IMG/VR virus record: IMGVR_UViG_3300022929_002779
Coordinates: 1 to 22,336 of that record
DNA from: a virus
Length of the DNA stretch: 22,336 bases
Direction: 5' to 3' (one strand)
Each line of letters opens with the position of its first letter. Position 1 is the first letter of the stretch. The position numbers and the translations under genes are program-made. Below the pieces are notes generated by a model. It was not told the origin of the DNA. It searched no databases and worked only from the letters and a program-made list of their open reading frames with translations. Positions 2,894 to 21,025 of this stretch are shown piece after piece.

Positions 2894-2901
2894 TTGCCCA
2901 C

Positions 2902-3306: not shown

Positions 3307-3318
3307 ACTGTATTTACC

Positions 3319-5064: not shown

Positions 5065-5464
5065 GTTTGCCTTCCTCTCTCATTTCTGCTCTAATTTTTG
5101 TAGCACTAATATCATGTATATCTTTACCCAAGTCGTGTTCTGTAAATGTATAACCTACACCACGACCATAACTAATATCCACAATGTTGGGCACTATCAT
5201 TATAATATATTCTTTTTGATATGTAAAGCCTTCTTTTGCTAATTCTTTTTTAATATTTTCTTCAACGTCTGTAACAATAAAAGGATTATCATCCTGTACC
5301 ATTGTACGTCCGCCGGAAGCATCTGTATCTTGTGGCACTGTTCTAATTTGAATACACACTTGTCCTGTTTCTGCTAAAGCACGTTTAAACAATTCTGTAT
5401 GTCCAGCATGCCACGGTTGCCAACGTCCTAGCATTTGTGTAGTTGGTTTAAATCGATTAAACAT
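5057..5464 (-). CDS. HxGH-type nucleotidyltransferase (cytidylyltransferase-like)
   Basis: 135 residues with the two signatures of the nucleotidyltransferase superfamily: GRWQPWHAGH at 13-22 (the nucleotide-binding HxGH loop) and ISATKIR at 119-125 (the ISxTxIR loop). The length equals a single catalytic domain. The substrate is not readable; family members join nucleoside triphosphates to phosphorylated small molecules (CDP-glycerol, NAD, CoA and FAD precursors). It overlaps the kinase gene upstream by 8 bases and the DnaE-like gene downstream by 8 bases, so the three are translationally linked. A kinase placed directly before it suggests consecutive steps, phosphorylation then nucleotidyl transfer; this is inference. 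Confidence 0.8.
   Translation of the reverse strand: MFNRFKPTTQMLGRWQPWHAGHTELFKRALAETGQVCIQIRTVPQDTDASGGRTMVQDDNPFIVTDVEENIKKELAKEGFTYQKEYIIMIVPNIVDISYGRGVGYTFTEHDLGKDIHDISATKIRAEMREEGKLA
5071..5077 (-). promoter_or_regulatory. Ribosome binding site deciding a TTG start
   Basis: GAGGAAG on the minus strand lies 6 bases upstream of the TTG at 5064. It supports the TTG as the true start of the DnaE-like gene, whose protein would otherwise lose its PDIDIDF motif. Confidence 0.7.
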
Positions 5465-5882
5465 TATTTCTCTCCATCCAAGTTGCTACAACAGGCATTA
5501 ATTGTGTATGAGTATCTTCAAACCATTGTGCTACGTGGTAATCACAATGCGGAGGCTTTACGAACATTTTATTTGTATCTTCAAACCGTCCTTCCTTGAT
5601 AGTATCCATCCAAACTGTAAAGTCTGGATTAAATTCTAATCGGGCTTGTTCGGTTGGGCACACAAAATCTGCTATAGCAACTTTACCTGCCATTACTACA
5701 CCGTCTGCTAAGTAGCGCATACGTGCCGCTTGTCGCATACGACCTTCTGGTGTAAAGTCCCAATCATTATATTGATTTCTAACATTGTCAGCATTAATAT
5801 GAACCCCGCCAATAAGTTCAGCAAATGGCTTTGCTAATGTAGTTTTTCCACTTCCAGGTAATCCAAAAATTAATATTTTCAT
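5457..5882 (-). CDS. Adenylylsulfate-kinase-like P-loop kinase
   Basis: 141 residues. Walker A GLPGSGKTT is at 7-15; ADNVR at 31-35 corresponds to the DGDNVR motif of APS kinases; ADFVCP at 71-76 occupies the place of the FISP strand-loop; and a basic lid-like FVKPPHCDY follows at 107-115. It is shorter than bacterial CysC (about 200 residues). The resemblance to APS kinase (ATP plus APS to PAPS) is clear at motif level. However, the small size and the nucleotidyltransferase next door leave the acceptor open, including small-molecule or nucleotide-linked hydroxyl groups. It begins with an ATGA overlap with the zinc-finger gene's stop, so it is the downstream partner in one operon. Confidence 0.75.
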   Translation of the reverse strand: MKILIFGLPGSGKTTLAKPFAELIGGVHINADNVRNQYNDWDFTPEGRMRQAARMRYLADGVVMAGKVAIADFVCPTEQARLEFNPDFTVWMDTIKEGRFEDTNKMFVKPPHCDYHVAQWFEDTHTQLMPVVATWMERNNV

Positions 5883-6574: not shown

Positions 6575-7019
6575 GTTGCTCAGCAAGCTCTTTGATTTCT
6601 TTTTTTGTAGATATTCTAGCAAGTGTTTCTACCTCGTCCATTTTCATATCTGGATATATTTGTGACAATAGTTTAACAGTTTTGCTACTATCGTCTTTCT
6701 TTTTCTTCAGCCCTATCCAAGGATGAAATTGTTTCTTTCCTGTCTTACCAGCAACACATAACAATTGCCATTGTAACTTAACATGATTAGTTCCACCAAG
6801 CACATTCCAGTTTTTATTATAATATTCATTAACTTTAAATACTGCTAATGCTGTTTTTTCAAAGTTGCCTTTTACACTGCTAATGTAACGGTTTAAGTTC
6901 CACAAATCGCCTTTAATATCTTTTTTGCCATCTTCTCCAGCAGCATCATACAGTTCTTTGAAGCCCATATCAATGCTTGGAATAAGTTCTTTGAACAAGT
7001 CTAATTCTTTGTTAGGCAT
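6549..7019 (-). CDS. Conserved hypothetical protein, mostly helical
   Basis: 156 residues starting MPNKELDLFKELIPSIDMGF. Predicted largely alpha-helical, with a central aromatic segment (NEYYNKNWNVLGGTNHVKLQ) and a charged C-terminal half (GLKKKKDDSSKTVKLLSQIY, MDEVETLARISTKKEIKELA). No signal peptide, membrane segment or catalytic motif. The C-terminal pattern, a helix then a short LAxxxTxxEIxxLA helix, faintly recalls the small clamp-loader subunit gp62 of T4-like phages, but the match is too weak to claim. It overlaps kdsB upstream by 8 bases and the zinc-finger gene downstream by 26 bases. Function unknown. Confidence 0.65.
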   Translation of the reverse strand: MPNKELDLFKELIPSIDMGFKELYDAAGEDGKKDIKGDLWNLNRYISSVKGNFEKTALAVFKVNEYYNKNWNVLGGTNHVKLQWQLLCVAGKTGKKQFHPWIGLKKKKDDSSKTVKLLSQIYPDMKMDEVETLARISTKKEIKELAEQHGFDKINI

Positions 7020-7680
7020 TTTGTTTGTGCCACTTCACTACATCTTCTGGAGAGTTAATTTCAATACCATCAAACTCTACTTCTACTACACCAATTTTTT
7101 GTCCGTTTTGTATCCAACGTAGCTGTTCTAGTTTTTCAATATCTTCTTCTGGAAACTTTGTGCTTGTTGTATACACAATTTTTGACTCTCTATTGTATCC
7201 ATATACACCCAAATGATGATCTCCGTATTCTAAACTAGCACGTAAGAACCAATGAGCTCTACCTCTGCTGTGTATCATTTTAACACTGTTTGGATCAGAA
7301 CGCAAGTTAAAATCCATCGGTGTGTAAGCAGTTGCTACATCGCTGTGTTGTAATGCGCCTTCTACAGCACGAATAATTTCAGGTGTAATATCCGGCATGT
7401 CTCCTTGGACATTAATGTACTTATCATATTGTAACACTTCATCAATAACACTCATACATCTGTCGGTGCCGTTTGCCAGTCTATAGTCTGTCATTATAGC
7501 ATGATCACCAAACAGTGCCATTACTTCTTCGCTGTCAGCCAATACGTATGTATCTAAGCCAGTCTCAACGCATCTATCATACACACGTTGTATCAGTGGC
7601 ACTCCGTTAAGTGGACAAAGCATTTTACGTGGTAATCTTGTGGCGTTTAGTCTAGCGGGTATTAGTATAGCTGTAGTCAT
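7012..7680 (-). CDS. kdsB: 3-deoxy-manno-octulosonate cytidylyltransferase (CMP-Kdo synthetase)
   Basis: 222 residues. Would transfer CMP from CTP to Kdo. The CTP-binding loop IPARLNATRLPRKML is at 7-21, NVQGDMP at 90-96 (D94 equals the Mg ligand D98 of E. coli KdsB), HHLGVYGY at 155-162, EEDIEKLEQLRW at 178-189 and EINSPEDV at 207-214. In the last motif the family has DTPEDL, whose Asp (D235 in E. coli) binds metal; here it is Asn 209. The E of NVQGDEP is also replaced by Met. It is about 25 residues shorter than E. coli KdsB (248). The ATG at 7680 has an AAAGGAC ribosome site and lies 29 bases inside kdsA, so the two are coupled. The family is sure; full activity is likely but not certain. 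Confidence 0.88.
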   Translation of the reverse strand: MTTAILIPARLNATRLPRKMLCPLNGVPLIQRVYDRCVETGLDTYVLADSEEVMALFGDHAIMTDYRLANGTDRCMSVIDEVLQYDKYINVQGDMPDITPEIIRAVEGALQHSDVATAYTPMDFNLRSDPNSVKMIHSRGRAHWFLRASLEYGDHHLGVYGYNRESKIVYTTSTKFPEEDIEKLEQLRWIQNGQKIGVVEVEFDGIEINSPEDVVKWHKQNA

Positions 7681-8428
7681 GTATGTCCTTTATTACACTT
7701 TCGAAGTCTGCGAGTTTTACCATGTTAGGTCCGTCGCTGGGTGCGTTATCCGGGTCAGGATGGACTTCTAAAAAGAAGTGACGGATACCCAGTGCCGCAG
7801 CTCCTCTACTGAGAGGAGATACATAATCACGATTGCCGCCGCTACTACCACCTTGCCCACCAGGCTTCTGGACACTATGGGTAGCATCAAAAACAATAGG
7901 GTTGCTGTAATTATTAAGCATATAGCATAAACCGGTATAGTCGACAACGAGTGTGTTGTATCCAAAACTTGTACCTCTCTCTGTAATCCAAACTTCTTTA
8001 GCACCTTCTGTTTTACTTAATATACCTTTGACGTCCCAAGGTGCTAGGAACTGTCCTTTTTTAATGTTTACAATACAATCTGTCTTACATGCTTCAACAA
8101 TCAAGTCAGTTTGTCTACACAAGAAAGCAGGTATTTGTAGTATATCTACTACACCTTTACATCTGTTTATCTGTCCTACAGTGTGAACATCTGTAAGTAT
8201 TTTAAATCCTGCTGCTTTCATCTTTTGAAAGTGCGGAAGTGTGTCATCAATACCTACACCACGTTCACCTGACATACTAGTGCGATTTGCTTTATCAAAG
8301 CTGGCCTTGAAATAGTAGTTCATGCCGTATTGATCGCAAATACGTTTACACACAGTGGCTATTTCCATACTGTGCTGTAAACCTTCGTGCTGACAAGGGC
8401 CAGCTATGATTGTAAGTTTATTATCCAT
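7652..8428 (-). CDS. kdsA: 3-deoxy-8-phosphooctulonate synthase (Kdo-8-phosphate synthase)
   Basis: 258 residues, full family length. Condenses phosphoenolpyruvate with arabinose 5-phosphate to Kdo-8-phosphate in the cytoplasm. Motifs in order: AGPCQHEG (9-16), FKASFDKANRTS (40-51), TDVHT (79-83), FLCRQTDL (102-109), KKGQFLAPWDV (123-133), TERGTSFGYNTLVVD (149-163), DATHSVQKPGG (181-191) and EVHPDPDNAPSDG (221-233). Cys12, His184, Glu221 and Asp232 match the metal ligands of the Aquifex enzyme (C11, H185, E222, D233), so this is the metal-dependent class, unlike E. coli KdsA, which has Asn at the Cys position. It overlaps kdsB downstream by 29 bases and the small unknown gene upstream by 8. 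Confidence 0.95.
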   Translation of the reverse strand: MDNKLTIIAGPCQHEGLQHSMEIATVCKRICDQYGMNYYFKASFDKANRTSMSGERGVGIDDTLPHFQKMKAAGFKILTDVHTVGQINRCKGVVDILQIPAFLCRQTDLIVEACKTDCIVNIKKGQFLAPWDVKGILSKTEGAKEVWITERGTSFGYNTLVVDYTGLCYMLNNYSNPIVFDATHSVQKPGGQGGSSGGNRDYVSPLSRGAAALGIRHFFLEVHPDPDNAPSDGPNMVKLADFESVIKDIHDYSYTNTR

Positions 8429-9490: not shown

Positions 9491-10350
9491 AATAAACTTT
9501 CCAATGTCTTTTTTAGTCCTACTTCTAAAGGTGTATAATCTGTAAATCCTGTAAGTGTTTGTACCAATGTAGTATCAGGACATCTACGTGTTGCGCTGCC
9601 TACAGGACCAGAACGTATTTCCAGTCTATCTGGATTAATACCCATATAACCCATTATGAGTTTTGCTACAATACTTATACGTGTTTCTACGTCTTGTCCT
9701 ACATTCACGGTAGTGTTACTAGCAGTTTTTATTAGTATATCTGTCATACGAACAGCATCGTCTACATAACAGAAACTACGTGTATCGTCACCATTAATAT
9801 AGTATTCACCTTGCTTACAACGTTCTACAAACTCATTTACAAAGTGATCAATTTGTCCTGGTCCATACACGTTAAAGTAGCGTATGATAAGATATTCTAA
9901 ACCACTATTTGCTACCAAGTTTTCACCAAGTGCTTTTGGTATGCTATAACTCCAACGTGGGTTTGTAATGTCATTATACATCACAGGCACTGATTCGTCT
10001 GTGGGCACATGATAGTATCCGTTATCAATTGTGCTGTTGAATATTTCACAAGTGCTGGCAAATATGAACTTAGTTTTTGTGCTGTGATAGCGTTTTATTA
10101 AGTTTATAGTTGGCAGTGTGTTGTTGATACAAACATCTGTTGGATGTTGATAGAATAATTTAGTGCCGTTGGTTGCTGCTAGATGAACAACTACATCAGT
10201 GTCAGGCAATTGGTTAGCCACGTCAGAACATTTTAAATCACTTTCAAAACCATCTTTTTGATCGTAACCAATTACATCATATGTATCCTTTACATAGTTG
10301 TAATAATGACTGCCTATGAATCCTTTATGTCCGGTGACTAATATTTTCAT
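9487..10350 (-). CDS. NAD-dependent epimerase/dehydratase (extended SDR), UDP-sugar decarboxylase- or epimerase-like
   Basis: 287 residues from ATG at 10350; a TTG two codons earlier is possible but less likely. NAD-binding TGHKGFIGS is at 6-14, ASTCEIF at 98-104, catalytic Tyr135 and Lys139 are in YSIPK, RYFNVYGPGQ spans 157-166, and DDTRSFCYVDDAV is a later substrate-loop motif. The C-terminal RRCPDTTLVQTLTGFTDYTP then PLEVGLKKTLE resembles UDP-glucuronate decarboxylases and UDP-glucose epimerases. Directly preceding a UDP-sugar dehydrogenase with a shared ATGA, a UDP-glucuronate to UDP-xylose step is attractive, but an epimerase cannot be excluded. The ATG overlaps the SGNH gene's stop as ATGA. 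Confidence 0.85.
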   Translation of the reverse strand: MKILVTGHKGFIGSHYYNYVKDTYDVIGYDQKDGFESDLKCSDVANQLPDTDVVVHLAATNGTKLFYQHPTDVCINNTLPTINLIKRYHSTKTKFIFASTCEIFNSTIDNGYYHVPTDESVPVMYNDITNPRWSYSIPKALGENLVANSGLEYLIIRYFNVYGPGQIDHFVNEFVERCKQGEYYINGDDTRSFCYVDDAVRMTDILIKTASNTTVNVGQDVETRISIVAKLIMGYMGINPDRLEIRSGPVGSATRRCPDTTLVQTLTGFTDYTPLEVGLKKTLESLL

Positions 10351-11027
10351 GACCAATTAGCATCCTCTTTACTTTGTGAAACAGTATAAAATTGATTAGG
10401 TTGAACAAATGTACTATGAACGTCAAAATCTGTTTCAATATGGCGTTTCATATAATTAGCAAATTCTTGATTTTGTTTGTTACTCATATGACAAACTCTA
10501 TCATTTTGATATTCAGGTAATCGTAACTTATTACAATCTAACATACTTATATTACGCATACACCCTTGACTAACCGTTGGAAAATCAAAAGCAAAAATTA
10601 TATTAGCATCTGGACGATGATATTTAATGCTGTCTAAGTAACTCAAATGATAAATGATGTTACTTTCATAATATGTATTTTTTATAATTTCACTCTTTAC
10701 TATTTTTAATAATCTATCATCAATTCTACTTTTAGTTTGTCTGTTTAAAGATCTTAAAGATTTTAAATCTATATTTTGGTAAAATGCTAAATGCTTTGGA
10801 TTATTATCTTCTAATGTAAAAATACTTCCTCGATTTATACTTGTTACTATAAAAATTATTTTGTCAAAATATTGATTATATTTTCTAAATTGGAAATACG
10901 AATAATCAAAGCTACTACCTCCTACGCTATAGTTAGACATATCGCTTTTTAGCTGCTCATTGAGTATACCTACCCAAGATTTTTCTCCATCTAAAGAATA
11001 ACTATCTCCAAACACACCTAACTTCAT
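10347..11027 (-). CDS. SGNH/GDSL-hydrolase-like protein, copy B
   Basis: 226 residues from ATG at 11027, which shares ATGA with the stop of copy A. An upstream in-frame start at 11045 would add MERRHK and lies within copy A. VFGDSYS (5-11) carries the nucleophile-type Ser of block I, VGGSSFDYS resembles block II, and CHMSNKQNQEFANYM near the C-terminus resembles block V with its His. The Asp three residues before that His in the usual DxxH is not present (RVCH). Homologous to the following gene over its whole length, including a near-identical 46-base stretch. It might deacylate or modify a surface sugar; activity is unproven given the altered acid residue. Confidence 0.72.
   Translation of the reverse strand: MKLGVFGDSYSLDGEKSWVGILNEQLKSDMSNYSVGGSSFDYSYFQFRKYNQYFDKIIFIVTSINRGSIFTLEDNNPKHLAFYQNIDLKSLRSLNRQTKSRIDDRLLKIVKSEIIKNTYYESNIIYHLSYLDSIKYHRPDANIIFAFDFPTVSQGCMRNISMLDCNKLRLPEYQNDRVCHMSNKQNQEFANYMKRHIETDFDVHSTFVQPNQFYTVSQSKEDANWS
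10445..10490 (-). repeat. Near-identical 46-bp repeat, copy in SGNH gene B
   Basis: Pairs with 11134-11179: 45 of 46 bases are identical, the only difference being at 10457 versus 11146. It encodes the block V-like CHMSNKQNQEFA region. Confidence 0.9.
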
Positions 11028-11725
11028 CTTATGTCTTCTTTCCAACCTGCTTGCTTAATTGTTGTGCTTTTTGTATAATGTTGTTCTGGAGATATCATAG
11101 TATTATGAATATCGATTTCTCCTTTTATATGTTGTTTCATATAATAAGCAAATTCTTGATTTTGTTTGTTACTCATATGGCAGCATCTAAAGTCATCGTG
11201 TTCTGAAAGATTTAGAGCATTCCAATCTAACTGACTGATGTTTATCATTCCTACATCACTACGATTTGGAAATGGAAAGGCATAAATTATGTGTGCGTCT
11301 GGACGTTGAAATTTTATACTGTCAATATAAGCATTGTGATACATTATATTGCTGTCAAATAATTTTAATTTTTTTATTTCATTATTAACTATTGGCCAGA
11401 TTTTATTATAGTATTTTTTGTATACTTTACGTTCATTCCTATCCATTTTATCAGTGTTAGAAAATTTTAAATCTTCTATATCCGCATTTTGATAAAATGC
11501 TAAATGGACAGGTTTATTTTCTTCTAGTGTAAACAAACTTCCTCTGTCAAAACTACTTACAACAAAAATTATTTCGTCAAATTGTTTCTGTGTTTCGCAA
11601 AATTTGTAATAGGAATAATCTATACTGCTACCGCCTTTGCTAAAACATTTGAAATTTTTGTCAAGATAATCTATCCACGAATATCCTCCGGGTTCAGCGT
11701 AGCTATCACCGTAAATACCTAACAT
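11024..11725 (-). CDS. SGNH/GDSL-hydrolase-like protein, copy A
   Basis: 233 residues. IYGDSYA (4-10) is block I with Ser8, KGGSSIDYSYYKF resembles block II, VSSFDRGSLFTLEENKP gives a family-specific loop, and CCHMSNKQNQEFAYYM is the block V-like segment. As in copy B, the His is retained but the usual DxxH Asp is not at its place (the sequence is DDFRCCH, with Asp five and six residues before). The start ATG at 11725 overlaps the stop of the GT-A gene as TAATG. Tandem copy of the adjacent gene and clearly homologous to it throughout. No signal peptide, so it is probably cytoplasmic or virion-associated. Substrate unknown; an acyl or acetyl group on a glycan is a guess from neighbours. Confidence 0.72.
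   Translation of the reverse strand: MLGIYGDSYAEPGGYSWIDYLDKNFKCFSKGGSSIDYSYYKFCETQKQFDEIIFVVSSFDRGSLFTLEENKPVHLAFYQNADIEDLKFSNTDKMDRNERKVYKKYYNKIWPIVNNEIKKLKLFDSNIMYHNAYIDSIKFQRPDAHIIYAFPFPNRSDVGMINISQLDWNALNLSEHDDFRCCHMSNKQNQEFAYYMKQHIKGEIDIHNTMISPEQHYTKSTTIKQAGWKEDIR
11134..11179 (-). repeat. Near-identical 46-bp repeat, copy in SGNH gene A
   Basis: Partner of 10445-10490, one mismatch in 46 bases. The flanking parts of the two genes are much more diverged, so this stretch stands out. Confidence 0.9.
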
Positions 11726-12435
11726 TATAAGTACCTTTCAAAATAAGTAAGAGGCAACCTTTTCTTTATAGGTCCCTTTTCGTGTAGCATGTATTCATTT
11801 AACATAGAGGTATTTAACGGTGTATGTGTATTTTTATCATTACTTAATTGTGACAAATCGTTATACTTAACATGACTAGCAGAAAACATACACACTTGTC
11901 CGTCGTACCATTTTTGTATTTCTTTAGGTTTATTTACATATGACGATTTGTATAGGTTAACAAATTTTGTAAAATCTTTATGATTTTTATTTACAATTAC
12001 AAAGCCTGACTCTGAACTATACAATTCGCCTAGATAATCATGACTGAATAAAGCAACACAGTATTTTTTTGGACACAAGTCTGTAATTAAACTTGTGTTA
12101 AAATCTTTAAGATATAAAATATCAGCATCAGACCAAATTAAATAATCAGTGTCAATGTTTTCTAATGCGTGTAAGAACGTATAACCTTTTTTCGCAAACT
12201 TTATTTCTTTAGGAATTTCAGATTTAAACTGTTTCCATAAAGGCTTTACAACATAGTTCCAATCATATATTTTAAGTTTGTCTGTTTTTGTAAACTCAAA
12301 CTTAACATTTTCAGCATAAAAATTTATTCTACAATTACTTGGAGAATGTTTTATATAGCTATTCAGCATAATTTGACCAACGTTATCGTAATAATGTTGA
12401 TCCATTGTTGTTACAAATTCAAACCTCAGTGCCAC
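11725..12435 (-). CDS. GT-A fold glycosyltransferase (GT8-like)
   Basis: 236 residues. RFEFVTTMDQHYYDNVGQIM gives the first strand and helix of a GT-A nucleotide-sugar-binding domain, and DTDYLIWSDADILYLKD contains the DxD metal motif (DAD, residues 103-105). A later segment, SESGFVIVNKNHKDF, is the usual acceptor-side strand. It shares its layout with the plus-strand glycosyltransferase at 16856-17689 (NSY...INFYAE, then DxD). The start is GTG at 12435, 17 bases inside the cupin gene; the next ATG (12405) would remove the first beta strand, so GTG is preferred although no ribosome site is visible. No signal peptide. Donor sugar and acceptor unknown. Confidence 0.8.
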   Translation of the reverse strand: MALRFEFVTTMDQHYYDNVGQIMLNSYIKHSPSNCRINFYAENVKFEFTKTDKLKIYDWNYVVKPLWKQFKSEIPKEIKFAKKGYTFLHALENIDTDYLIWSDADILYLKDFNTSLITDLCPKKYCVALFSHDYLGELYSSESGFVIVNKNHKDFTKFVNLYKSSYVNKPKEIQKWYDGQVCMFSASHVKYNDLSQLSNDKNTHTPLNTSMLNEYMLHEKGPIKKRLPLTYFERYL

Positions 12436-12763
12436 TTGTGCGTCTTACGATATCATCGTGGTTAAATTCTGCCCAGTATAATTCAAATGCTACACCATCT
12501 TCTAGTCCTTCAAACTGGTGTACTTTACCTGGTTTAACTTGTGTAAAGTCGCCTGCTTCTAAAATTGTCTCGTCTACTAGTCCTTGATCATCTTGCCAAA
12601 CACGAACAAGCATCTTTCCTGACTCAACAAAAAAGCCGTTCCATTTAAATTGATGCTCATGTTCTGAACATTTATATCCTTCTTTGTATTCGATGCGGTG
12701 AAATTCTAACACACCGTTCGCATGGATCAATTCTGTTTGACCCCAGATTTTTCCTGCTTTCAT
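12419..12763 (-). CDS. Single-domain cupin protein
   Basis: 114 residues. Cupin motif 1 is around KCSEHEHQFKWNGFFVESGK (31-50, His35 and His37), and motif 2 is AGDFTQVKPGKVHQFEGLED (70-89, His82). Length and motifs fit a one-domain cupin related to sugar-nucleotide or sugar-phosphate isomerases, or a binding protein. A second cupin in this window, fused to a nucleotidyltransferase (20261-21025), is a more typical ManC C-terminal type. ATG at 12763 has a strong ribosome site that overlaps the stop codon of the gene before it. It leads into the GT-A gene with a 17-base overlap. Probably part of sugar metabolism by context; catalytic role unproven. Confidence 0.75.
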   Translation of the reverse strand: MKAGKIWGQTELIHANGVLEFHRIEYKEGYKCSEHEHQFKWNGFFVESGKMLVRVWQDDQGLVDETILEAGDFTQVKPGKVHQFEGLEDGVAFELYWAEFNHDDIVRRTSGTEV

Positions 12764-13279: not shown

Positions 13280-14788
13280 TTATTTCCAATCCACTTTTTC
13301 TATTGTGAATGGGTATTGAGCTTCCTTATAAAACTTTTTACGTTGGGTAAGGTGCCGCTTCGCAAACTTACAAGTGCTTGTAAGATCCCATATTTGAACG
13401 AAGTCTTTGTCCTTTGCCTTTCTAACGCCTCTACCTATACTTTGAATAACTCTAACAAAACTTTTTCCGGGCTCAATAAGAACAAGATTGAAAATGCGAG
13501 GAATGTTAATACCAACAGCAGCGACACCATAAGTGGCAATAACCACGTGATTAGTTCCTTCGTTGATTTCGTCATACGCATCTTTTCTATCCTTCAGTTT
13601 TACGTCTCCTTTTACAAAGACTGATCCTGGAATAAGTTCTTGTAGCATTTCGCCTGCGCTAATCCTATCTACAAGTATTAGAGTGTTGCCTGATTCTTTT
13701 ACTGTGTTTAATAATTTGCCTAAATAATTTATTCTGTCTTGATTTGTAACTAGATATTTTAATTCTTCTTGATAGCCTCTGTGTGCTACCGTGTCAATAA
13801 GTTGTACTATGTTTACATGACATTGTGATAGCACACCTTTGTCTTGTAATTCTTTAGCTGATATTTCTCCAATCACTGGACCTAAACTTGCGTGTATACT
13901 TTCAAACTCAAACTTCTCTTTAGGAATAGTTCCAGTAAGACCCCAACGTATTGGAGCATTACGCAAGTTGCGTGTAAGCAAGTTTTTCAATACTTCTGCT
14001 TTTGCTTGGTGTACTTCATCAACAATAACTGTGCTTACACCATCTAGAAATTCTGCTAAGGATAGTACTGCTGAACCGTCCTTGTGTTTCTTGTCTAGTA
14101 TGTTGAGAGATTGCCAAGTACATATTGTATGACTTCTGCCCAGTTCTTTCCTATCGCCAAAATATACACCTACATCTAATCCACAGTTGATATAATCTTC
14201 TTCAGTTTGTGTAACTAAACTTTTGTTTGGTACAATAACAAGACTACGTCCATACTTTTCGCTCATATGCGATAGTGTAGCAGTTGTAATAGTCTTGCCT
14301 GCGCCTGTAGCAATTTGTTGTAGGCTCTGTGGATTATTAGCAAAGCTGTTAATTGCTTCAACTTGATAGTCACGTAAAATAATTTCTTCGCCTTCTGCGG
14401 GGTGTCCTTTAGGCCAGCATACGCCTTGATCTGCCCAGTAGCGTTCTGTAACTTGTGGAAAGTTTAGTTGTATAGGATGTCGTTTATCTTCAATATTTAC
14501 AATACTTACTTTGTTTTTCTCAAGTACTGAAACAATAGTATCAAGATGATTGACATAGCCAGTACCGCCAATACCAAAGAAAGCAACTTTGCCATCCCAA
14601 CGCCCGAGCTTATACTGAGGCATATATCGTGCGTATGGTACTTCGAACTTGAGTGCGTTACTAAGTTTTCGTCTGACGTCTACGTCTAGCCCTTCTAGTT
14701 TGATATTTACTTCGTCCTCGATTATCAGTTTACATGTAGGCACTAGTTGATCTCCAAAAAATACTTTTATTTTTTTCATGATATACAT
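13280..14788 (-). CDS. uvsW: UvsW-type superfamily 2 DNA/RNA-DNA helicase
   Basis: 502 residues, about the length of T4 UvsW. The N-terminal domain includes YKLGRWDGKVAFF (59-71), matching YGNWDGRIRL of T4. Then RDYQVEAINSF (139-149), Walker A ATGAGKT (160-166), VDEVH (256-260, motif II), GLTGT (283-287, motif III), TYGVAAVGINIP (419-430, motif V) and QSIGRGVRK (449-457, motif VI). In T4 this enzyme unwinds R-loops and branched DNA, shutting off origin replication and driving recombination-dependent replication and fork regression. Starts at 14788 or, equally possible, the ATG at 14779 (MKKIKVFF); neither has a clear ribosome site. Its 5' end overlaps the preceding gene by 59 (or 50) bases. 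Confidence 0.95.
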   Translation of the reverse strand: MYIMKKIKVFFGDQLVPTCKLIIEDEVNIKLEGLDVDVRRKLSNALKFEVPYARYMPQYKLGRWDGKVAFFGIGGTGYVNHLDTIVSVLEKNKVSIVNIEDKRHPIQLNFPQVTERYWADQGVCWPKGHPAEGEEIILRDYQVEAINSFANNPQSLQQIATGAGKTITTATLSHMSEKYGRSLVIVPNKSLVTQTEEDYINCGLDVGVYFGDRKELGRSHTICTWQSLNILDKKHKDGSAVLSLAEFLDGVSTVIVDEVHQAKAEVLKNLLTRNLRNAPIRWGLTGTIPKEKFEFESIHASLGPVIGEISAKELQDKGVLSQCHVNIVQLIDTVAHRGYQEELKYLVTNQDRINYLGKLLNTVKESGNTLILVDRISAGEMLQELIPGSVFVKGDVKLKDRKDAYDEINEGTNHVVIATYGVAAVGINIPRIFNLVLIEPGKSFVRVIQSIGRGVRKAKDKDFVQIWDLTSTCKFAKRHLTQRKKFYKEAQYPFTIEKVDWK

Positions 14789-15947
14789 GTAAGTCGCAAG
14801 TATCGTTCATGTATACAGAAACTATAGTATTAATTCTAGTACTTGTCAAGCACAAAACACTCATTGGTTGCCAATCAACTGTAAATAAAATCTTAGGAAG
14901 TTTTTGTTTGCTAAGATATAAAACTTTTGTTTTTTTGTCAAACCAATTATTCAAATTATTTTTATGAATATAATTATTGAAATTTTTATCATTTTCTGTT
15001 TTATTTTCTGTTCTAAATAATACAGTTTGTTGCTCAGTTGGTATACCACAAAGTGCTGTATGTACTTTTGAAAGCTGTGCGTATTCTTCATTTGTATCTA
15101 AAAGAACTAATAACGGTAATCTATCTAAATATAATAAACTGTCGCATACATTTTGTAAACTATGTGTTTCGTTATCAATGTAACAATCTATCCATTCTCG
15201 ATGAGCAATAAAATTTGGTAATGTGTCATCTATGTCGTGAGTAATATAATTAAGTCCATATAGTCTTCTTCTATCAAATAGTTGTAAATTACTTAACTTG
15301 TTCATTTTAGATTCAATAAAGTCTGTGCCACTTTTAGAAATGTTTTTTATTTTTCCATTCCACAATCCAGGAACATAGTTACTAGGTTCTTCTTTAATAA
15401 TTTCTACTTCCTTAAACATATCAAGTAAATAGTTGTCAATTACAAATTCACTATCTTTAAAAGTTGTTACAAGTTCATATACTATATTTTCTTTTATTTT
15501 AAAAAAATGTTTGTGTGATCCTTTTTTATGACTATAATATTTTCTAAATTTATTTGCTATTTTTTCTAGTTTAACAATTGCTTTTTTAGAAAATGGAAAT
15601 CTAATTACAACCCATTGTGAATTATCTTTGTTTAATTCTTCACGTTCGTTTTTGTCAGTAATTTTTATATATTTTCTTCTATCGATTTGTCTAAGAGGTT
15701 GCCGTAATTCGTGTACAGCTACCTCATAGTTTGTATAATTATAGGCTAAAAATTGTGTAAAATAGTCACTAAGTTTTTGCTTCATTAATAAACATTGTCT
15801 ATCAGTTAGTGCTGTGCCTTTGAACACTTGTCTAGCAATACTATTAATTATTGTTTTATCATTTTCATGTATGATAAAATTATCAGTTGATGTTAATCCA
15901 GCAACCACTTCTAGACAATCTTCAATTGTTTGTAAATTTTTATCCAT
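14730..15947 (-). CDS. Conserved hypothetical protein upstream of and overlapping uvsW
   Basis: 405 residues, starting MDKNLQTIEDCLEVVAGLTS. The N-terminal third has KTIINSIARQVFKGTALTDR (about 31-50), a helical segment, then RQPLRQIDRRKYIKI and VVIRFPFSKKAIVKLEKIAN. The middle is lysine-rich (KKGSHKHFFKI), and the last third contains LPLLVLLDTNEEYAQL and VLYLSKQKLPKILFTVDWQP, beta-alpha elements that resemble a Rossmann-like fold without diagnostic motifs. I recognise no enzyme. A similar protein occurs, as I recall, in marine T4-like phages. It is very AT-rich compared with uvsW. Its last 20 codons are read over the uvsW start in another frame, a long overlap that suggests coupled translation. 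A DNA-transaction role is guessed from the neighbour only. Confidence 0.72.
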   Translation of the reverse strand: MDKNLQTIEDCLEVVAGLTSTDNFIIHENDKTIINSIARQVFKGTALTDRQCLLMKQKLSDYFTQFLAYNYTNYEVAVHELRQPLRQIDRRKYIKITDKNEREELNKDNSQWVVIRFPFSKKAIVKLEKIANKFRKYYSHKKGSHKHFFKIKENIVYELVTTFKDSEFVIDNYLLDMFKEVEIIKEEPSNYVPGLWNGKIKNISKSGTDFIESKMNKLSNLQLFDRRRLYGLNYITHDIDDTLPNFIAHREWIDCYIDNETHSLQNVCDSLLYLDRLPLLVLLDTNEEYAQLSKVHTALCGIPTEQQTVLFRTENKTENDKNFNNYIHKNNLNNWFDKKTKVLYLSKQKLPKILFTVDWQPMSVLCLTSTRINTIVSVYMNDTCDLHVYHEKNKSIFWRSTSAYM

Positions 15948-15960
15948 AGTTTATTATAAC

Positions 15961-15968
15961 ACTTTATA
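15961..15968 (-). promoter_or_regulatory. Weak late-promoter-like box before the uvsW operon
   Basis: Minus strand TATAAAGT matches 6 of 8 bases of TATAAATA and lies 13 bases before the ATG at 15947. In T4 uvsW is a late gene, so a late start here would make sense, but the match is weak and the region is AT-rich. Confidence 0.25.
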
Positions 15969-16821
15969 AGCTATTAGTCAATCTTTTCAAAGGCAACCCT
16001 AATTCTATTTCTTCAACTGTATATTCAGTGTGAGCATAATCATTAAGCCATTGTGTTCGATCTGGCATTAAGGGATCTTCTATGTCGTGAAAAAAATCTA
16101 TGTCGTTGCCAACATCGTAAGCAAGACTAGAGGGACTAACAAAAGCTGGAACACCATTGATACAAGAGTGAACTCCCGGATTAGAGCTGTGACTGATAGT
16201 AGCCCACACATTATCGAAGCCCATATCAAAATCGTCGTAAGTTCCATGAATATGTCTTGGTTCCTGTCTTTCTACATAACGCAACCCACGTTCTATATGC
16301 TCTAGCCTACAACGTGGATGAGGTCTAAATACAATAGGACGGTCAGTATGCTTACGTATTTCATCGTAGGTATTTAAAAACCAATTGCTCATACGAGGCA
16401 TATCATGCCATTGTAAACTTTTGTCGTGTTGTCCACAAACAAGAATATACTTGCCGTTTGTTCGCCAAGGTTGTAATTTAATACCTAACGCTTTTGCTCT
16501 TGACGCATCTTGTCCTGTATCACCGAAGTAGGCATCACGGTTGATCCCGTTGATTCCCACTTTCCACGTTTTGCCTCTTTTGATTCCGCCAACTTCGAGG
16601 ACGATAACCGGTCTGTTATTTGAAACACAATAGGACCAAATATCTTTGTTCCTAGCCATTCTGCCATGAAAAAGAACGCTCCAAATAACATGAACATCGG
16701 AATCCCCATAATCATTACTATTGCTAATACTCCAGCCATTGCGAATAATAGAATTGCTAAAAGCCCGAAAAATATCTTTGGAATTAAGTGCACCGTATTC
16801 TGTCCATAATCTAAACTTCAT
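15964..16821 (-). CDS. KpsC/KpsS-like capsule polysaccharide (Kdo-type) transferase-like protein, paralogue 1
   Basis: 285 residues. The C-terminal half has the pattern of capsule polysaccharide synthesis proteins of the KpsC/KpsS type: KYILVCGQHDKSLQWH (124-139), a helix, TDRPIVFRPHPRCR (159-172), then WATISHSSNPGVHSCINGVP with AFVSP (206-230), where His211 and Ser212/213 sit in the conserved HSS loop of a GT-B-like fold. Residues FHDIEDPLMPDRTQWLNDYA close the domain. It is homologous to the two genes at 17665-18600 and 18587-19501. KpsC and KpsS are Kdo transferases, which fits kdsA and kdsB in the same window. No signal peptide. Preceded by a perfect late-promoter consensus. Substrate is inference; the KpsC/S-like family is moderately secure. 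Confidence 0.68.
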   Translation of the reverse strand: MKFRLWTEYGALNSKDIFRAFSNSIIRNGWSISNSNDYGDSDVHVIWSVLFHGRMARNKDIWSYCVSNNRPVIVLEVGGIKRGKTWKVGINGINRDAYFGDTGQDASRAKALGIKLQPWRTNGKYILVCGQHDKSLQWHDMPRMSNWFLNTYDEIRKHTDRPIVFRPHPRCRLEHIERGLRYVERQEPRHIHGTYDDFDMGFDNVWATISHSSNPGVHSCINGVPAFVSPSSLAYDVGNDIDFFHDIEDPLMPDRTQWLNDYAHTEYTVEEIELGLPLKRLTNSL

Positions 16822-16822
16822 A

Positions 16823-16830
16823 GTTAAATA
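16823..16830 (+). promoter_or_regulatory. Weak late-promoter-like box for the plus-strand glycosyltransferase
   Basis: GTTAAATA keeps the TAAATA core of the T4 late element (6 of 8) and ends 25 bases before the ATG at 16856, leaving room for the AAGGAA ribosome site. Confidence 0.3.
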
Positions 16831-16836
16831 GTAACA

Positions 16837-16844
16837 TATTTATA
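16837..16844 (-). promoter_or_regulatory. T4-type late promoter, perfect consensus
   Basis: The minus strand reads TATAAATA, identical to the T4 late promoter element. It lies 15 bases before the ATG at 16821 in the gap between two divergent genes. It would restart minus-strand transcription after the plus-strand glycosyltransferase. Confidence 0.65.
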
Positions 16845-16849
16845 AGGAA
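16844..16849 (+). promoter_or_regulatory. Ribosome binding site choosing between two ATGs
   Basis: AAGGAA is directly adjacent to the ATG at 16850 but 6 bases from the ATG at 16856, so the second ATG is the better start. Confidence 0.7.
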
Positions 16850-16855
16850 ATGTCA

Positions 16856-17689
16856 ATGTCAATTACAGTAGTATCTACTTTTCACAAGCCAGTATTAGAA
16901 CTTTATGGACAGCGTTTTGTTAATAGTTTTAGTGAAAATATTGATCAAGACATTAATTTAAGATTATATGCTGAAGATTGTTCCCCTACTACAAAAGATC
17001 CACGTATACAAATATTAGATCAAAAAGAAAAATTGCCTAAATTAATGGCATTTAAAGAACGTTGGAAAAATGAACCAAAAGCAAATGGCAAATGTCCTCC
17101 TGAAATAAAGAAACGCAGACCTAGAGATTGGCACAAAGAATTTAAATGGGATGCCATACGTTTTGCTAACAAAGTATATGCTGTATTTGATGCTGCTGAA
17201 AATTGTAATACAGATTGGATTGTATGGATGGATGCTGATACAATTGTACATAGTAAGTTTTCTTATAAAGCATTTAAAAACTTTTTACCAGACAGAGCAT
17301 ATTTAAGTTACTTAGGAAGAGGTAAAAAATGGCCAGAATGTGGATTCTACGGAATAAATTTACGTAACAATATTGGATTAGAATTTTTAAAAGAGTTTGA
17401 ACACGTATATGAACATGCTGAGTATGGAATTTTTCGTATGGAAGAATGGCATGATAGTTATGTATTTGACGAAATATTAAAAAAGATAAAACGTAAATAT
17501 CCTAACGAAGCATTTTATAATATTAGTGGAAACTTAGTTAACGGCGAAGGTCATCCATTAATTAATAGTGGGTTAGGAGCCTACTTAGATCACTTAAAAG
17601 GCGATCGTAAAAATATTGGCAAAAGTAACAAACCTAGAGATTTGATAAAGCCTCGTAATGAAAGTTACTGGACAAACTCACGCATGTGA
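16856..17689 (+). CDS. GT-A fold glycosyltransferase on the plus strand
   Basis: 277 residues from ATG at 16856. SITVVSTFHK opens the nucleotide-sugar domain; WHKEFKWDAIRFANKVYAVF (92-111) and CNTDWIVWMDADTIVHS (117-133) follow, with the DxD motif DAD at 126-128. Later PECGFYGINLRNN and HPLINSGLGAYLDHLKGD fit the acceptor side and a metal-binding His near the C-terminus. Related in layout to the minus-strand enzyme at 11725-12435. This gene is inserted against the direction of its neighbours, between two paralogous KpsC/S-like genes, and its end overlaps the end of the next gene by 25 bases tail to tail. Low GC and A-ending codons stand out. Donor and acceptor unknown. Confidence 0.82.
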   Translation: MSITVVSTFHKPVLELYGQRFVNSFSENIDQDINLRLYAEDCSPTTKDPRIQILDQKEKLPKLMAFKERWKNEPKANGKCPPEIKKRRPRDWHKEFKWDAIRFANKVYAVFDAAENCNTDWIVWMDADTIVHSKFSYKAFKNFLPDRAYLSYLGRGKKWPECGFYGINLRNNIGLEFLKEFEHVYEHAEYGIFRMEEWHDSYVFDEILKKIKRKYPNEAFYNISGNLVNGEGHPLINSGLGAYLDHLKGDRKNIGKSNKPRDLIKPRNESYWTNSRM

Positions 17690-18600
17690 CGCCAACAAGT
17701 GCCGTCTTGAAGCTCAGATAATTTCCAATGAAACATGCTTATACGCTGTAACCATTTCTCTCTGTCAAACTCTTTGGGGTTCTCTATGTCTTCAAATCCA
17801 TAATGTGCTACTTCAGCACACTGACTACGTTCAGGATCTGTAACAAAAGCCGGATAGCCTTTGATTATTGGTCCTACAATGCTGCTACTATTATGATTTA
17901 CAACAGCATAACATTTTAACAAATCTTGTTCTAACGGAGTTCCAAATTGACTTATACTTACATTTGGTAAATGTTTTACTGGGTTAGATCGAGGATTTAG
18001 ATATACTCTAGCTTTTTTATCACCAGGATGTGCTCTTACAATAATATGACGATCGCTGTATTTTCTTATTTCTTTTACTGTGTTAACAATCCAATCAGTA
18101 ACATTATATCCTCCCATACTCCAGCCCTTATTACGTTGACAACAAAGTACTATATGTTTGCCTTTTTTATATTCTTCTAATCTTACACCCAAATCGTTTT
18201 GAATTTGTTGCCAACGATTAGGATCTGGATTTGTATCGCAATAATTACCTGTATTTGGAAACACGCCATTAAAACTATATCTTAGATAACAATGAGGTTG
18301 ATTAGTTTTTGTATGATATAAAAAAAGATTGCTATCAGCAGTTATTACAGCTTTATGTTTCATAGCACCTTGTGTATCTATTACTTGTTGTCGTAGTTTT
18401 AAATGGGGAGCACTTTTTCCTATTTCATGTGTCCATCCTTGTATTACTCCTACGTCACTATCAAGAACATCAAATCCCTTATGTAATATACCAGTATCGC
18501 CTACTGCGTTTACACCTTGTACAAAATTTTCTAATAAAAGATATTTTTCTCTATTGTTATTCACTGTAGGAACAACATTAAAATAACTAACTACTTTCAT
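17665..18600 (-). CDS. KpsC/KpsS-like capsule polysaccharide transferase-like protein, paralogue 2
   Basis: 311 residues. GKHIVLCCQRNKGWSMGGYN (147-166), YSDRHIIVRAHPGDK (181-195) and VVNHNSSSIVGPIIKGYPAF (233-252) reproduce the three conserved segments of the KpsC/KpsS-like group, including the RxHP motif and the HNSSS loop. The closing segment GFEDIENPKEFDREKWLQRI parallels FHDIEDPLMPDRTQWLNDYA of paralogue 1, and the C-terminal QDGTCWRHMREF parallels RNGTAWRILNES of paralogue 3. The N-terminal half diverges and probably carries the acceptor site. ATG at 18600 lies 14 bases inside paralogue 3. Probably a cytoplasmic, sugar-nucleotide-dependent transferase; a Kdo donor is suggested by context, not shown. 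Confidence 0.7.
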   Translation of the reverse strand: MKVVSYFNVVPTVNNNREKYLLLENFVQGVNAVGDTGILHKGFDVLDSDVGVIQGWTHEIGKSAPHLKLRQQVIDTQGAMKHKAVITADSNLFLYHTKTNQPHCYLRYSFNGVFPNTGNYCDTNPDPNRWQQIQNDLGVRLEEYKKGKHIVLCCQRNKGWSMGGYNVTDWIVNTVKEIRKYSDRHIIVRAHPGDKKARVYLNPRSNPVKHLPNVSISQFGTPLEQDLLKCYAVVNHNSSSIVGPIIKGYPAFVTDPERSQCAEVAHYGFEDIENPKEFDREKWLQRISMFHWKLSELQDGTCWRHMREFVQ

Positions 18601-19501
18601 TTAATATTCTCCAAGCTGTTCCATTACGAAGCTCGGGACTAGTAAATTGGCAATAAGACAAATGAGCAGCAAATGTTTCTACTAAATCCTTAGGATATTT
18701 TTGTAAAAATTCTATCTGTTCTATTCGTGTTTCACATATTACGGAAGCAGCGTTAGGAGCTAATGCTATTGCTGGTACATTAGCTAGAATAGCTTCACTA
18801 GCAGCGATACTATTATATGTAACTAAACAATAAGCATCATCTAACGCATTCCAAATTGTATCTGTTGTAACTCTTTCTCTACGTGTTGGTTTTTGTCTAA
18901 TAACAATAGGTCTATCAGAATATTTTTTTATTTTGGCAATAGTGTTTTGCATCCATACATTAATATCTTCTCCATAATATTTCATAACCTTTTCACTAGG
19001 TGGACATACTAATATATTTTCACCTGGATTCTTTCGCTTCCTATATTTCCATCTTAAACGTGAAAGACGATCAAAATCTCTTTCAATAAGAGGACCCATA
19101 TTTTGTAAAGCGTTGAAAGTTACTCTATGATACTCTTTTTTTGTACTTGGTTGTAAGTAACCAGTATCAATAGCATAAAAATCTCTATTATTTTCAACAC
19201 AATGTTTAAGAGCTTTTTGGCCGCCGCCTCCAAGTCCTCTTATGACTAGTGGATTTTTGTTATTTTTTTCGTATTCAAATGTGCTTAAATACCCACCACA
19301 ACCTGTAATAAAATCAGTTAGATACGGATCATAATCTACACCTTTTTTTGCTAGATTAAAATCTTCAGCATTTGGTGCTATAGCTGCTACTTTTATACCC
19401 ACAGTATCTTCCTTCCATTTACTTCTTAATTCTTTTTTTGTTTTCCAAACATACTCATAAGGATCAATTATAGTTTTAGTAGTAAGATCTAAAATTTCCA
19501 T
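18587..19501 (-). CDS. KpsC/KpsS-like protein, paralogue 3 with altered motifs
   Basis: 304 residues, starting MEILDLTTKTIIDPYEYVWK. ENILVCPPSEKVMKYYG (161-177), YSDRPIVIRQKPTRRER (194-210) and CLVTYNSIAASEAILANVP with AIAL (225-247) align with paralogues 1 and 2. However, the RxHP motif reads RQKP and the HSS loop reads TYNSIA, so both conserved histidines are missing. A GLGGGGQKAL loop lies near residue 90. The change may mean a different donor, a lost activity or a partner role for the neighbouring paralogue. The gap to the next gene upstream is 47 bases (19502-19548), one of the larger gaps here, with no clear promoter or hairpin seen in it. Confidence 0.65.
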   Translation of the reverse strand: MEILDLTTKTIIDPYEYVWKTKKELRSKWKEDTVGIKVAAIAPNAEDFNLAKKGVDYDPYLTDFITGCGGYLSTFEYEKNNKNPLVIRGLGGGGQKALKHCVENNRDFYAIDTGYLQPSTKKEYHRVTFNALQNMGPLIERDFDRLSRLRWKYRKRKNPGENILVCPPSEKVMKYYGEDINVWMQNTIAKIKKYSDRPIVIRQKPTRRERVTTDTIWNALDDAYCLVTYNSIAASEAILANVPAIALAPNAASVICETRIEQIEFLQKYPKDLVETFAAHLSYCQFTSPELRNGTAWRILNESS

Positions 19502-19548: not shown

Positions 19549-20277
19549 TTAATGCGCTAGTCTTTTTTTTTGATCCTCGACTTCCTTTAAGAGGTAATCT
19601 CTTTCCATGGAATAATATTCAGTAGCATATTCACAATTTTTATATTCTTTGAACCAAGGACCGCCTTCGGTGTAGTGTAATGCTTGTGGTCTACCATCCT
19701 GTGGTTCTTTGTACCAACCTACTAACCAATTCCATTCATGACTGATTTTGCCAATTAGATTATCTGGCAACCAACTAAATCTATGTAAAAATGCTCCAGT
19801 TTTAAGTGGATCATTAACAAAGTCAGCGGTTACAATTTTATTAGCTGGATGTTCGCAGTTAATTAACATCATACTAGACCAGTTTTTTCTTGGATATTGA
19901 CTTTGTTGTTGACCATCCATTTTTGTGCCTTCTTTTGGCGTATAATCATGTTGGGCACACATAATAGCAAAGTTATTATTTTTTTGGGCAAACAATTGTC
20001 TAATATCTTGTTTAAACACAAAGTCACAATCTACAAATAAAGCCCAGCCTTTAAAATTACAAAGATGAGGAATTAAAAATCTTGTAAACGTAAATTCAGT
20101 ACTTGCTAATTGATCTACTTCGCGTGTGTATATACCTGCTTTCCGTAAATCTTTTTGTATCAAGGGTTCTATCTTGACAGGAACAGTAGACAACGATTCA
20201 ATACTGTGCTTACATACTCTGTATGCAATGTCTTCTCTTGTATCGTATCCTACAAATACTCTAATCTCTTCGCTCAA
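19549..20277 (-). CDS. GT8-like glycosyltransferase
   Basis: 242 residues. IRVFVGYDTREDIAYRVCKH (5-24) is the opening strand, loop and helix of this group; FTFTRFLIPHL precedes ALFVDCDFVFKQDIRQLF with DxD as DCD at 83-85. NWSSMMLINCEHPAN is the acceptor-side strand, and LHYTEGGPWFKEYKNCEYAT carries the late His-x3-GGPW motif seen in family 8-type enzymes that bind metal and donor phosphate. No signal peptide. The start is TTG at 20277, supported by a GGAG site 7 bases upstream; it overlaps the fusion gene by 17 bases. Transfers a sugar from a nucleotide donor; which sugar is unknown. Confidence 0.82.
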   Translation of the reverse strand: MSEEIRVFVGYDTREDIAYRVCKHSIESLSTVPVKIEPLIQKDLRKAGIYTREVDQLASTEFTFTRFLIPHLCNFKGWALFVDCDFVFKQDIRQLFAQKNNNFAIMCAQHDYTPKEGTKMDGQQQSQYPRKNWSSMMLINCEHPANKIVTADFVNDPLKTGAFLHRFSWLPDNLIGKISHEWNWLVGWYKEPQDGRPQALHYTEGGPWFKEYKNCEYATEYYSMERDYLLKEVEDQKKRLAH

Positions 20278-21025
20278 TGTCTTTCTCCGTTAATTCTTGT
20301 CCTAGCCAAACTTCAATAACTTTAGCGTTTTTGTTATCTATGTTTACTGCTTTATGCCACCAACCAAGTGGAATGTCTATGCTGTCTCCTGGAACTAGCA
20401 AGGTGCTAGTTTTGTTACCTTGTTTGTCTTCTAAAAACATATTGATAACACCGTCTACGACATGCCAATGTTCGCTGCGTTTAAAATGTCTTTGATCACT
20501 TAATGCTTTGCCTTCGTAAAATGTAAGTTCTTTAACTTGCCATTCTCCGTTGCGATCTAATACTTTGTATTCGCCCCAATCTCTGTATGTAACAGGCTTT
20601 TCCCAGTTTGACAAAATCCAGCTTGAACTATTTTTCTTATCTTCGCCTCCAACACCAAATACAAACTCAACATTAGGATGATCTCCGTATGTTTTTTGTT
20701 CTGGTATATCTCCGTCGATTCTGTCTCCACCATTAGCAACAATTATTTTATCAGTAGTAGTTTGTATCAAAACTCCAATTGCTTTAGAAGTTCCTCCTGT
20801 TTCGTCATCAGGGACTAACATAACGCTGTTAACTACTTCTAAATTTTCAATAATTTTAGCACGTTCTTCAAAAGGCATAAATGCTTTGCCTTTTTTGCGT
20901 TCTAACCACGGATCGCTATTCAAACCAACAACTAAAGTATCACCTAATTTTTTTGCTGCTTTGAAATATTCAATGTGTCCTGAGTGTAGTGGATCAAAAC
21001 CACCAGATACAAATACTGTCGTCAT
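20261..21025 (-). CDS. Bifunctional fusion: HxGH nucleotidyltransferase plus ManC-type cupin
   Basis: 254 residues in two domains. Residues 1-140 are a cytidylyltransferase/adenylyltransferase: SGGFDPLHSGH (7-17), LVVGLNSDPWLERKKGK (31-47), FMPFEERAKIIENL (49-62) and SSSWIL (133-138) as the second signature. This arrangement is like the HldE C-terminal (ADP-heptose) and glycerol-3-phosphate cytidylyltransferase enzymes. Residues 148-254 are a cupin like the C-terminal phosphomannose isomerase part of ManC: DWGEYKVLD, FYEGKALSDQRHFKRSEHWH (169-188), PGDSIDIPLGWWHKAVN and IEVWLGQEL. The pairing of an HxGH domain with this cupin differs from ManC, whose other domain is a GT-A-type guanylyltransferase. 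Probably makes and channels an activated sugar; substrate unknown. Confidence 0.82.
   Translation of the reverse strand: MTTVFVSGGFDPLHSGHIEYFKAAKKLGDTLVVGLNSDPWLERKKGKAFMPFEERAKIIENLEVVNSVMLVPDDETGGTSKAIGVLIQTTTDKIIVANGGDRIDGDIPEQKTYGDHPNVEFVFGVGGEDKKNSSSWILSNWEKPVTYRDWGEYKVLDRNGEWQVKELTFYEGKALSDQRHFKRSEHWHVVDGVINMFLEDKQGNKTSTLLVPGDSIDIPLGWWHKAVNIDNKNAKVIEVWLGQELTEKDIERRD
20285..20288 (-). promoter_or_regulatory. Ribosome binding site deciding a TTG start
   Basis: GGAG on minus lies 7 bases before the TTG at 20277, and no ATG is available before the conserved first strand of the glycosyltransferase. Confidence 0.6.

Follow-up and report, generated by a model that had tools for sequence, protein, structure and literature searches.

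Retaining β-transferases of 3-deoxy-D-manno-octulosonic acid (Kdo) are among the few well-characterised glycosyltransferases (GTs) shown to use a covalent adduct (PMC9587256, PMC10148158, PMC12887879). They contain an absolutely conserved QxxxD motif, the aspartate of which forms the adduct with Kdo, a (K/R)xHP motif, which binds cytidine monophosphate (CMP), and a catalytic glutamate (PMC10148158, PMC9587256, PMC12887879). KpsC and KpsS (GT107; PF05159) have a modified GT-B fold. The GT99 module of WbbB (Raoultella O-antigen) is a Kdo-transferase module located inside a larger multi-enzyme protein, and its adduct forms at Asp232 (PMC9587256). KrkA (GT140), reported in 2026 for the E. coli K13 capsule, is a Kdo transferase that hardly resembles KpsC and WbbB in sequence, and is fused to a second transferase (PMC12887879).

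Here, we compare these enzymes with three proteins, named A, B, and C, encoded in IMG/VR virus record IMGVR_UViG_3300022929_002779. The analysed stretch (the window; positions 1 to 22,336) is a 22.3-kb virus record with T4-type genes. A, B, and C are paralogues that diverged long ago within a phage glycosyltransferase superfamily, and have their descent and fold in common with KpsC/KpsS, WbbB, and KrkA. All three have lost or displaced the aspartate used by the capsule-starting Kdo transferases. We tentatively propose, with a probability of roughly 0.45, that a trio descended from the KpsC/KpsS lineage, in which A and B would use a CMP-activated ulosonic acid with altered chemistry, participates in making a short acidic glycan. 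The proteins represent a known kind of enzyme with a checkable oddity at the catalytic centre. A first-pass annotation, which had described them as candidate Kdo transferases forming a nearly self-contained system with kdsA and kdsB, was right on fold and neighbourhood, and overreached on chemistry and self-containment.

15964–16821, minus strand: paralogue A, GT-B fold, 285 amino acids; E76 in VLEVGG; Q131-H-D-K-S135 where QxxxD is expected; RPHP (R166, H168, P169); SS 212–213
17665–18600, minus strand: paralogue B, 311 amino acids; D89; Q155-R-N-K-G159-W-S where QxxxDxS is expected; RAHP (R189, H191, P192); NSS 237–239
18587–19501, minus strand: paralogue C, 304 amino acids; D112 in IDTGY; PPSEK171; RQKP (lysine in place of the HP histidine); S231

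Homology and fold of the three paralogues

The three open reading frames (ORFs) exist exactly as first annotated, all on the minus strand, and genes B and C overlap by 14 bp. Their products are true paralogues, with BLASTP E-values of 5e-17 (A/B), 8e-13 (B/C), and 2e-10 (A/C), and hhalign probabilities of 99.6–99.95% (E 5e-24 to 3e-38) between the family profiles. The ordered set of segments that the annotation had described as shared is present in A (ILVCGQ, TDRPIVFRPHP, SHSSNPG-GVPAFV, DRxxWL) and in B (IVLCCQ, SDRHIIVRAHP, NHNSSSI-GYPAFV, DRxxWL). It holds partly for C, which has SDRPIVIRQKP at the HP position and TYNSIAA-NVPAIA in the loop, and lacks the D/E-W helix. The ratio of nonsynonymous to synonymous substitution rates, ~0.1–0.25 in comparison with relatives of 60–93% identity, indicates purifying selection on A, B, and C, similar to that on kdsA and the GT8 gene.

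A, B, and C stay below the cut-off of every model in Pfam, PHROGs, and NCBIfam, and sequence searches of the PDB likewise give no match above threshold. Direct hhalign comparison of A, B, and C with profiles of KpsC/KpsS, represented by sequences from the Helicobacter family, gives probabilities of only 0–76%, and PF05159 matches single family members at E-values of only 0.04–0.1. The connection is provided by phage relatives that keep the QxxxD motif, followed by two residues that are each Ala or Ser (e.g., QRPGDSS, QVPWDAS). They adjoin the same gene train in 20 of the 99 dereplicated groups of contigs containing A, and also occur in podovirus-type contigs. Their profile matches that of KpsC/KpsS with a probability of 96.7% (E=3.4e-10), compared to 92% for KpsC versus KpsS, and those of A, B, and C with 100% (E 1e-42 to 6e-60). 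The Pfam family Capsule_synth is matched by 6 of 21 such relatives (best 1.7e-5). In these profile comparisons, the QxxxD-keeping relatives connect the window proteins by sequence with their bacterial counterparts.

AlphaFold models were made for A (39 sequences) and C (34 sequences), with mean predicted local distance difference test (pLDDT) scores of 92.1 and 87.7, respectively. In a Foldseek search of the PDB, the first 24 chains matched by A are all retaining β-Kdo transferases (WbbB, KpsC, and KrkA; E 4e-7 to 8e-5), with the GT99 module of WbbB at the top (8csd, E=4e-7). Epimerases (2-epimerases) of uridine diphosphate (UDP)-N-acetylglucosamine rank after them. The first 25 chains matched by C are also all retaining β-Kdo transferases (E 8e-5 to 1e-2). 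For neither protein is the best structural match an unrelated GT-B enzyme that uses a UDP sugar. The KpsC/KpsS-like fold of the first-pass annotation is borne out by these matches and supported by the profile link through the QxxxD-keeping relatives. B would belong to the same fold on the grounds of its profile homology to A and C. The BFVD matches of the A model include at least four structural relatives in the algal giant virus Tetraselmis virus 1, two of which are annotated as capsule polysaccharide biosynthesis proteins. The scales of Tetraselmis are rich in Kdo-type sugars.

Catalytic residues and the loss of the aspartate

The KpsC and KpsS sequences fetched for comparison contain QVANDAS, QVEDDAS, or QVYNDTQ, together with an EDGF or EEGY segment and KxHP. 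The QxxxD position is occupied by QHxKS in A (120 distinct sequences), by QRxxG in B (129 distinct sequences, with Gln and Gly in 129/129), and by xPSxK in C (145 distinct sequences). The nucleophilic aspartate of QxxxD is conserved in none of the three families. RxHP is kept in 120/120 A and 127/127 B sequences, and in C the HP histidine is replaced by Lys (139/145; RxKP) or Arg (6/145). An acid in the N-terminal domain is invariant in each family: E76 in 121/121 sequences of A, D89 in 129/129 of B, and D112 in the 143/143 of C that have a letter at this position. A and B thereby share with KpsC/KpsS the RxHP and serine motifs, the QxxxD glutamine, and an acidic residue within a segment similar to EEGY of KpsS and EDGF of KpsC. 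Unlike KpsC/KpsS, the window proteins have no PF05159 match, no conserved QxxxD aspartate, and no dual module, and C has no HP histidine. The aspartate equivalent to Asp232 of WbbB is not conserved in the trio. KrkA has the same fold, but retains QTLND and HP, and its general base is differently placed.

A CMP-activated ulosonic acid, with Kdo as the first candidate, is the best guess for the donor of A and B, since both keep the CMP-binding side and the acid/histidine pair. The donor would be bound through the RxHP and serine motifs. The absence of an aspartate nucleophile would close the covalent double-displacement route for B, and probably for A. We hypothesize that the acceptor is activated by the invariant acid (E76 in A, D89 in B) and that the HP histidine serves as the acid, in one inverting step.

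Several points weigh against the proposal. PF05159 (curated cut-off 20 bits) is unmatched in A, B, and C, even at E≤10 in the window. The template modelling (TM) scores of A and C to Kdo transferases are modest (0.28–0.55). The donor is deduced from the fold and just two motifs, and the inverting mechanism is hypothetical, put forward as the simplest alternative to the adduct route. E76, D89, and D112 are equated with the base Glu66 of KpsC by sequence pattern rather than by superposition, and the residue is Asp, not Glu, in B and C. The trio also occurs without kdsA, for example in a 230-kb record with A, B, and C. Finally, one profile alignment, in which two loop residues are deleted, places D133 of A on the nucleophile column. 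Of 120 sequences, 103 have Asp and 6 have Glu at this position, and the other 11 have Asn, Lys, Ala, Thr, or Gln, so that most lineages of A may retain the nucleophile in a displaced form.

In line with the first-pass annotation, the trio could be regarded as ordinary retaining β-Kdo transferases with the nucleophile shifted within the loop, building a linker similar to that of KpsS/KpsC from phage-boosted CMP-Kdo. Asp or Glu at D133 in 109/120 sequences, the Foldseek matches of A and C, and kdsA/kdsB nearby in 47/59 groups all agree with such enzymes. The nucleophile of the described enzymes is, however, absolutely conserved (PMC10148158, PMC9587256, PMC12887879), whereas 11/120 sequences of A are non-acidic at D133. 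Furthermore, B aligns at the nucleophile column free of gaps and with Gly in 129/129 sequences, and C, in a comparable alignment, has an acid there in only ~2/3 of sequences and has lost the HP histidine. Kdo transfer by the known chemistry is therefore improbable for the trio.

The history of the loss was examined in two trees. In the one including KpsC/KpsS, A, B, and C form one clade each, and B is positioned among QxxxD lineages (support 97/91). When long branches and the outgroup are left out, A groups with seven QxxxD rows (97/94). A single loss of the nucleophile is disfavoured by the approximately unbiased (AU) test against one clade of all nucleophile-less rows, although p=0.044 is marginal and the grouping was defined with the first tree already in view. 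Together, the AU test and the positions of A and B among QxxxD lineages indicate that the aspartate was probably lost at least twice. A search with the podovirus member of the family in 200 genomes of the Helicobacter phylum gave no match, which is uninformative, because no positive control matched either.

Cassette composition and Kdo supply

A, B, and C belong to a conserved cassette of large aquatic T4-like phages, probably for glycan assembly, which also contains a GT8-like and a GT2-like glycosyltransferase and a nucleotidyltransferase-cupin protein. The following genes of the window accompany the trio.

16850–17689, plus strand: glycosyltransferase of GT2-like type (GT-A), located between A and B and a conserved partner; DAD motif 128–130
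19549–20277, minus strand: GT8-like (GT-A) glycosyltransferase; DCD motif 83–85; not fused to C in the window
20261–21025, minus strand: HldE-C/TagD-like nucleotidyltransferase with a fused cupin of mannose-6-phosphate-isomerase type; belongs to the cassette, upstream
7652–8428, minus strand: kdsA, 3-deoxy-8-phosphooctulonate synthase (TIGR01362)
7012–7680, minus strand: kdsB-like CMP-Kdo synthetase, 222 amino acids, overlapping kdsA

The GT2-like gene shares the 25 bp at its 3' end with the end of B. In 93 of the 99 groups, A is accompanied by B, by C (alone or as a GT8-C fusion), and by the GT2-like gene; several of the remaining six are short fragments. The usual gene order is nucleotidyltransferase-cupin, GT8, C, B, GT2-like, A, a gene of unknown function, and uvsW. 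C is fused behind GT8 in 48 groups, the fusion having been first seen in L011, and is a gene of its own in 45. Aquatic viral contigs with A number at least 149, and those with C at least 593. Parts of the cassette are also present beyond this clade. Pelagibacter phage Mosig has a GT2-like gene, a GT8 gene, and two C-type genes. In Caulobacter jumbo phages, GT8 and C-like family members are flanked by a lysozyme and by a fibre-like protein that has carbohydrate-binding domains, and in a 42-kb podovirus the GT2-like gene and a QxxxD member adjoin the terminase. The trio travels as a fixed set in many viruses, which suggests that an unusual glycan is assembled by the virus itself. It is the GT8-like and GT2-like GT-A enzymes, rather than kdsA/kdsB, that show the tightest linkage to the trio, and, unlike in the KpsC/KpsS systems, capsule export genes are not associated with it.

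The DxD motif is invariant in the homologues of both GT-A enzymes (GT8 130/130, GT2-like 123/123). A, B, and C could be pseudoenzymes that serve these two intact enzymes as scaffolds or acceptor-binding subunits. Such a role would be in keeping with the fusion of C to GT8 in about half of the groups and with a catalytic aspartate that is conserved in none of the three and was probably lost at least twice. It is nevertheless quite improbable, as the putative acid-base and nucleotide-binding residues, which a scaffold would not need, are invariant in A and B. T4-type glucosylation of hydroxymethylcytosine was considered as a function of the cassette and rejected: of the 16 long records, which include fragments, 14 have no match to PF00303 (thymidylate-synthase family), and the two largest have one.

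C has lost the histidine and any conserved loop acid and has two near-invariant lysines, and its donor may therefore differ from that of A and B. We speculate that C now probably uses a different donor, or has a different function, in cooperation with the GT8-like enzyme. The C-GT8 fusion, reminiscent of the position of the Kdo-transferase module within WbbB, suggests that two sugars are added in succession, a parallel to KrkA. The switch could extend to the whole trio, with another activated sugar, such as the product of the nucleotidyltransferase-cupin protein, as the donor, and kdsA/kdsB serving something else. A diphosphate donor would fit the lysines of C, one of which is at the position of the HP histidine. 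Moreover, the conserved order has the nucleotidyltransferase-cupin gene upstream, and the cassette without kdsA and kdsA without the cassette both occur. Nevertheless, a different sugar is somewhat unlikely for the trio as a whole, given that A and B retain the RxHP and serine motifs typical of CMP-sugar enzymes, and that CMP-Kdo is the donor of all the best structural matches, with no UDP-sugar enzymes among them.

The proposed use of CMP-Kdo by A and B would be assisted by the nearby kdsA and kdsB, which may raise its supply from host precursors. KdsA is assigned by the TIGR01362 equivalog model (328 bits; cut-off 314). The best family of the 222-residue kdsB-like protein is kdsB (1.3e-47), yet its scores are below every curated cut-off. 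Among 59 groups with loci that span from A to the gene past kdsB, 47 contain both kdsA and kdsB, three kdsB alone, one kdsA alone, and eight neither; at least one of the loci without kdsA (L259) comes from a record in which kdsA lies at another position. Of the long records, 20 of the 25 seeded by A, B, or C include kdsA, and 7 of the 12 seeded by kdsA include the trio, which the other 5 lack. Because the samples were seeded and not corrected for background, these counts reflect a frequent but separable association rather than an enrichment. The co-occurrence expected from the first-pass annotation is therefore frequent without being obligate. No kdsA was found in phage Mosig or Caulobacter phage C1, though both have family members.

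KdsD (TIGR00393) and KdsC (TIGR01670) were found in none of the 16 long records, a set that includes fragments, and the notion of a nearly self-contained Kdo system is accordingly overstated. The Kdo precursors and the phosphatase step are most likely supplied by the host. KdsA, KdsB, and a GT8 homologue are also encoded near psbA/psbD in the 244-kb cyanophage Synechococcus phage S-SCSM2R (L302; PQ898602.1), in which tblastn with A, B, and C detected no relative.

Putative product, phage type and neighbouring genes

The product of the cassette would probably be a short acidic oligosaccharide attached to a phage virion protein or to the host envelope. As the acceptor, a virion protein is favoured by the position of family members between fibre and lysozyme genes in Caulobacter phages and by their context in the podovirus. 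Glycosylation of phage virions has a precedent (Freeman 2023, as cited in PMC12619734). The literature on pelagimyophages favours the host O-chain, as their glycosyltransferase genes of lipopolysaccharide type were interpreted as modifying it (PMC7029224). GT8 is the commonest family among those genes, and rfaE and UDP-glucose 6-dehydrogenase occur in marine T4-like phages; the text of that study mentions neither kds genes nor Kdo, however, and the gene train of the window differs, with relatives of 230–382 kb.

In its most specific form, our proposal states that the β-Kdo-transferase fold has dropped its nucleophile more than once in phages, and now performs inverting transfer of Kdo or another CMP-ulosonic acid, forming α linkages in a Kdo-containing, phage-made glycan. 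This combination of claims is clearly unlikely to hold in full. If true, it would represent a stereochemical switch inside one superfamily, with A and B positioned beside QxxxD paralogues in some of the same clusters. Close paralogues that keep or lose the nucleophile, sometimes within one phage cluster, constitute a natural experiment on how the adduct mechanism arises or is replaced. The superfamily also provides a testable role for gene sets that are present in hundreds of aquatic viral contigs and are left unnamed by the family libraries used, and a reason to seek Kdo-bearing glycans on phage particles or infected cells.

The window is probably a fragment of a jumbo phage, because the helicases closest to its own (51–55% identity) are from Sinorhizobium, Agrobacterium, and Pseudomonas jumbo phages, and contigs sharing its gene train reach 230–382 kb. 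A cyanophage origin was rejected, as psbA is present in 0 of the 16 long records, most of which belong to one clade. The remaining features of the window are listed below.

431–4107: tail-fibre and structural proteins
5057–5882: small kinase and small nucleotidyltransferase in overlapping frames, present only in some relatives
10347–11045 and 11024–11725: tandem paralogues with a GDSY motif at the start and no informative family match
12419–12763, minus strand: single-domain cupin, usually present between uvsW and kdsA
13280–14788, minus strand: uvsW-type helicase, syntenic landmark
14730–15947: protein of 405 amino acids and unknown function, located between A and uvsW in nearly all relatives

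A GP120 match of the 11725 gene scores under its cut-off and was taken as chance. Two contigs of 153 and 335 kb (L197 and L198), assigned to a Neomarinimicrobiota metagenome-assembled genome, contain the same phage train, from the 14730 gene to a polymerase-like gene, and a kdsA of 70% identity. They resemble phage contigs that came to be included in that genome by binning. In one relative (L113), uvsW is present as three separate ORFs, suggesting an insertion or a frame break.

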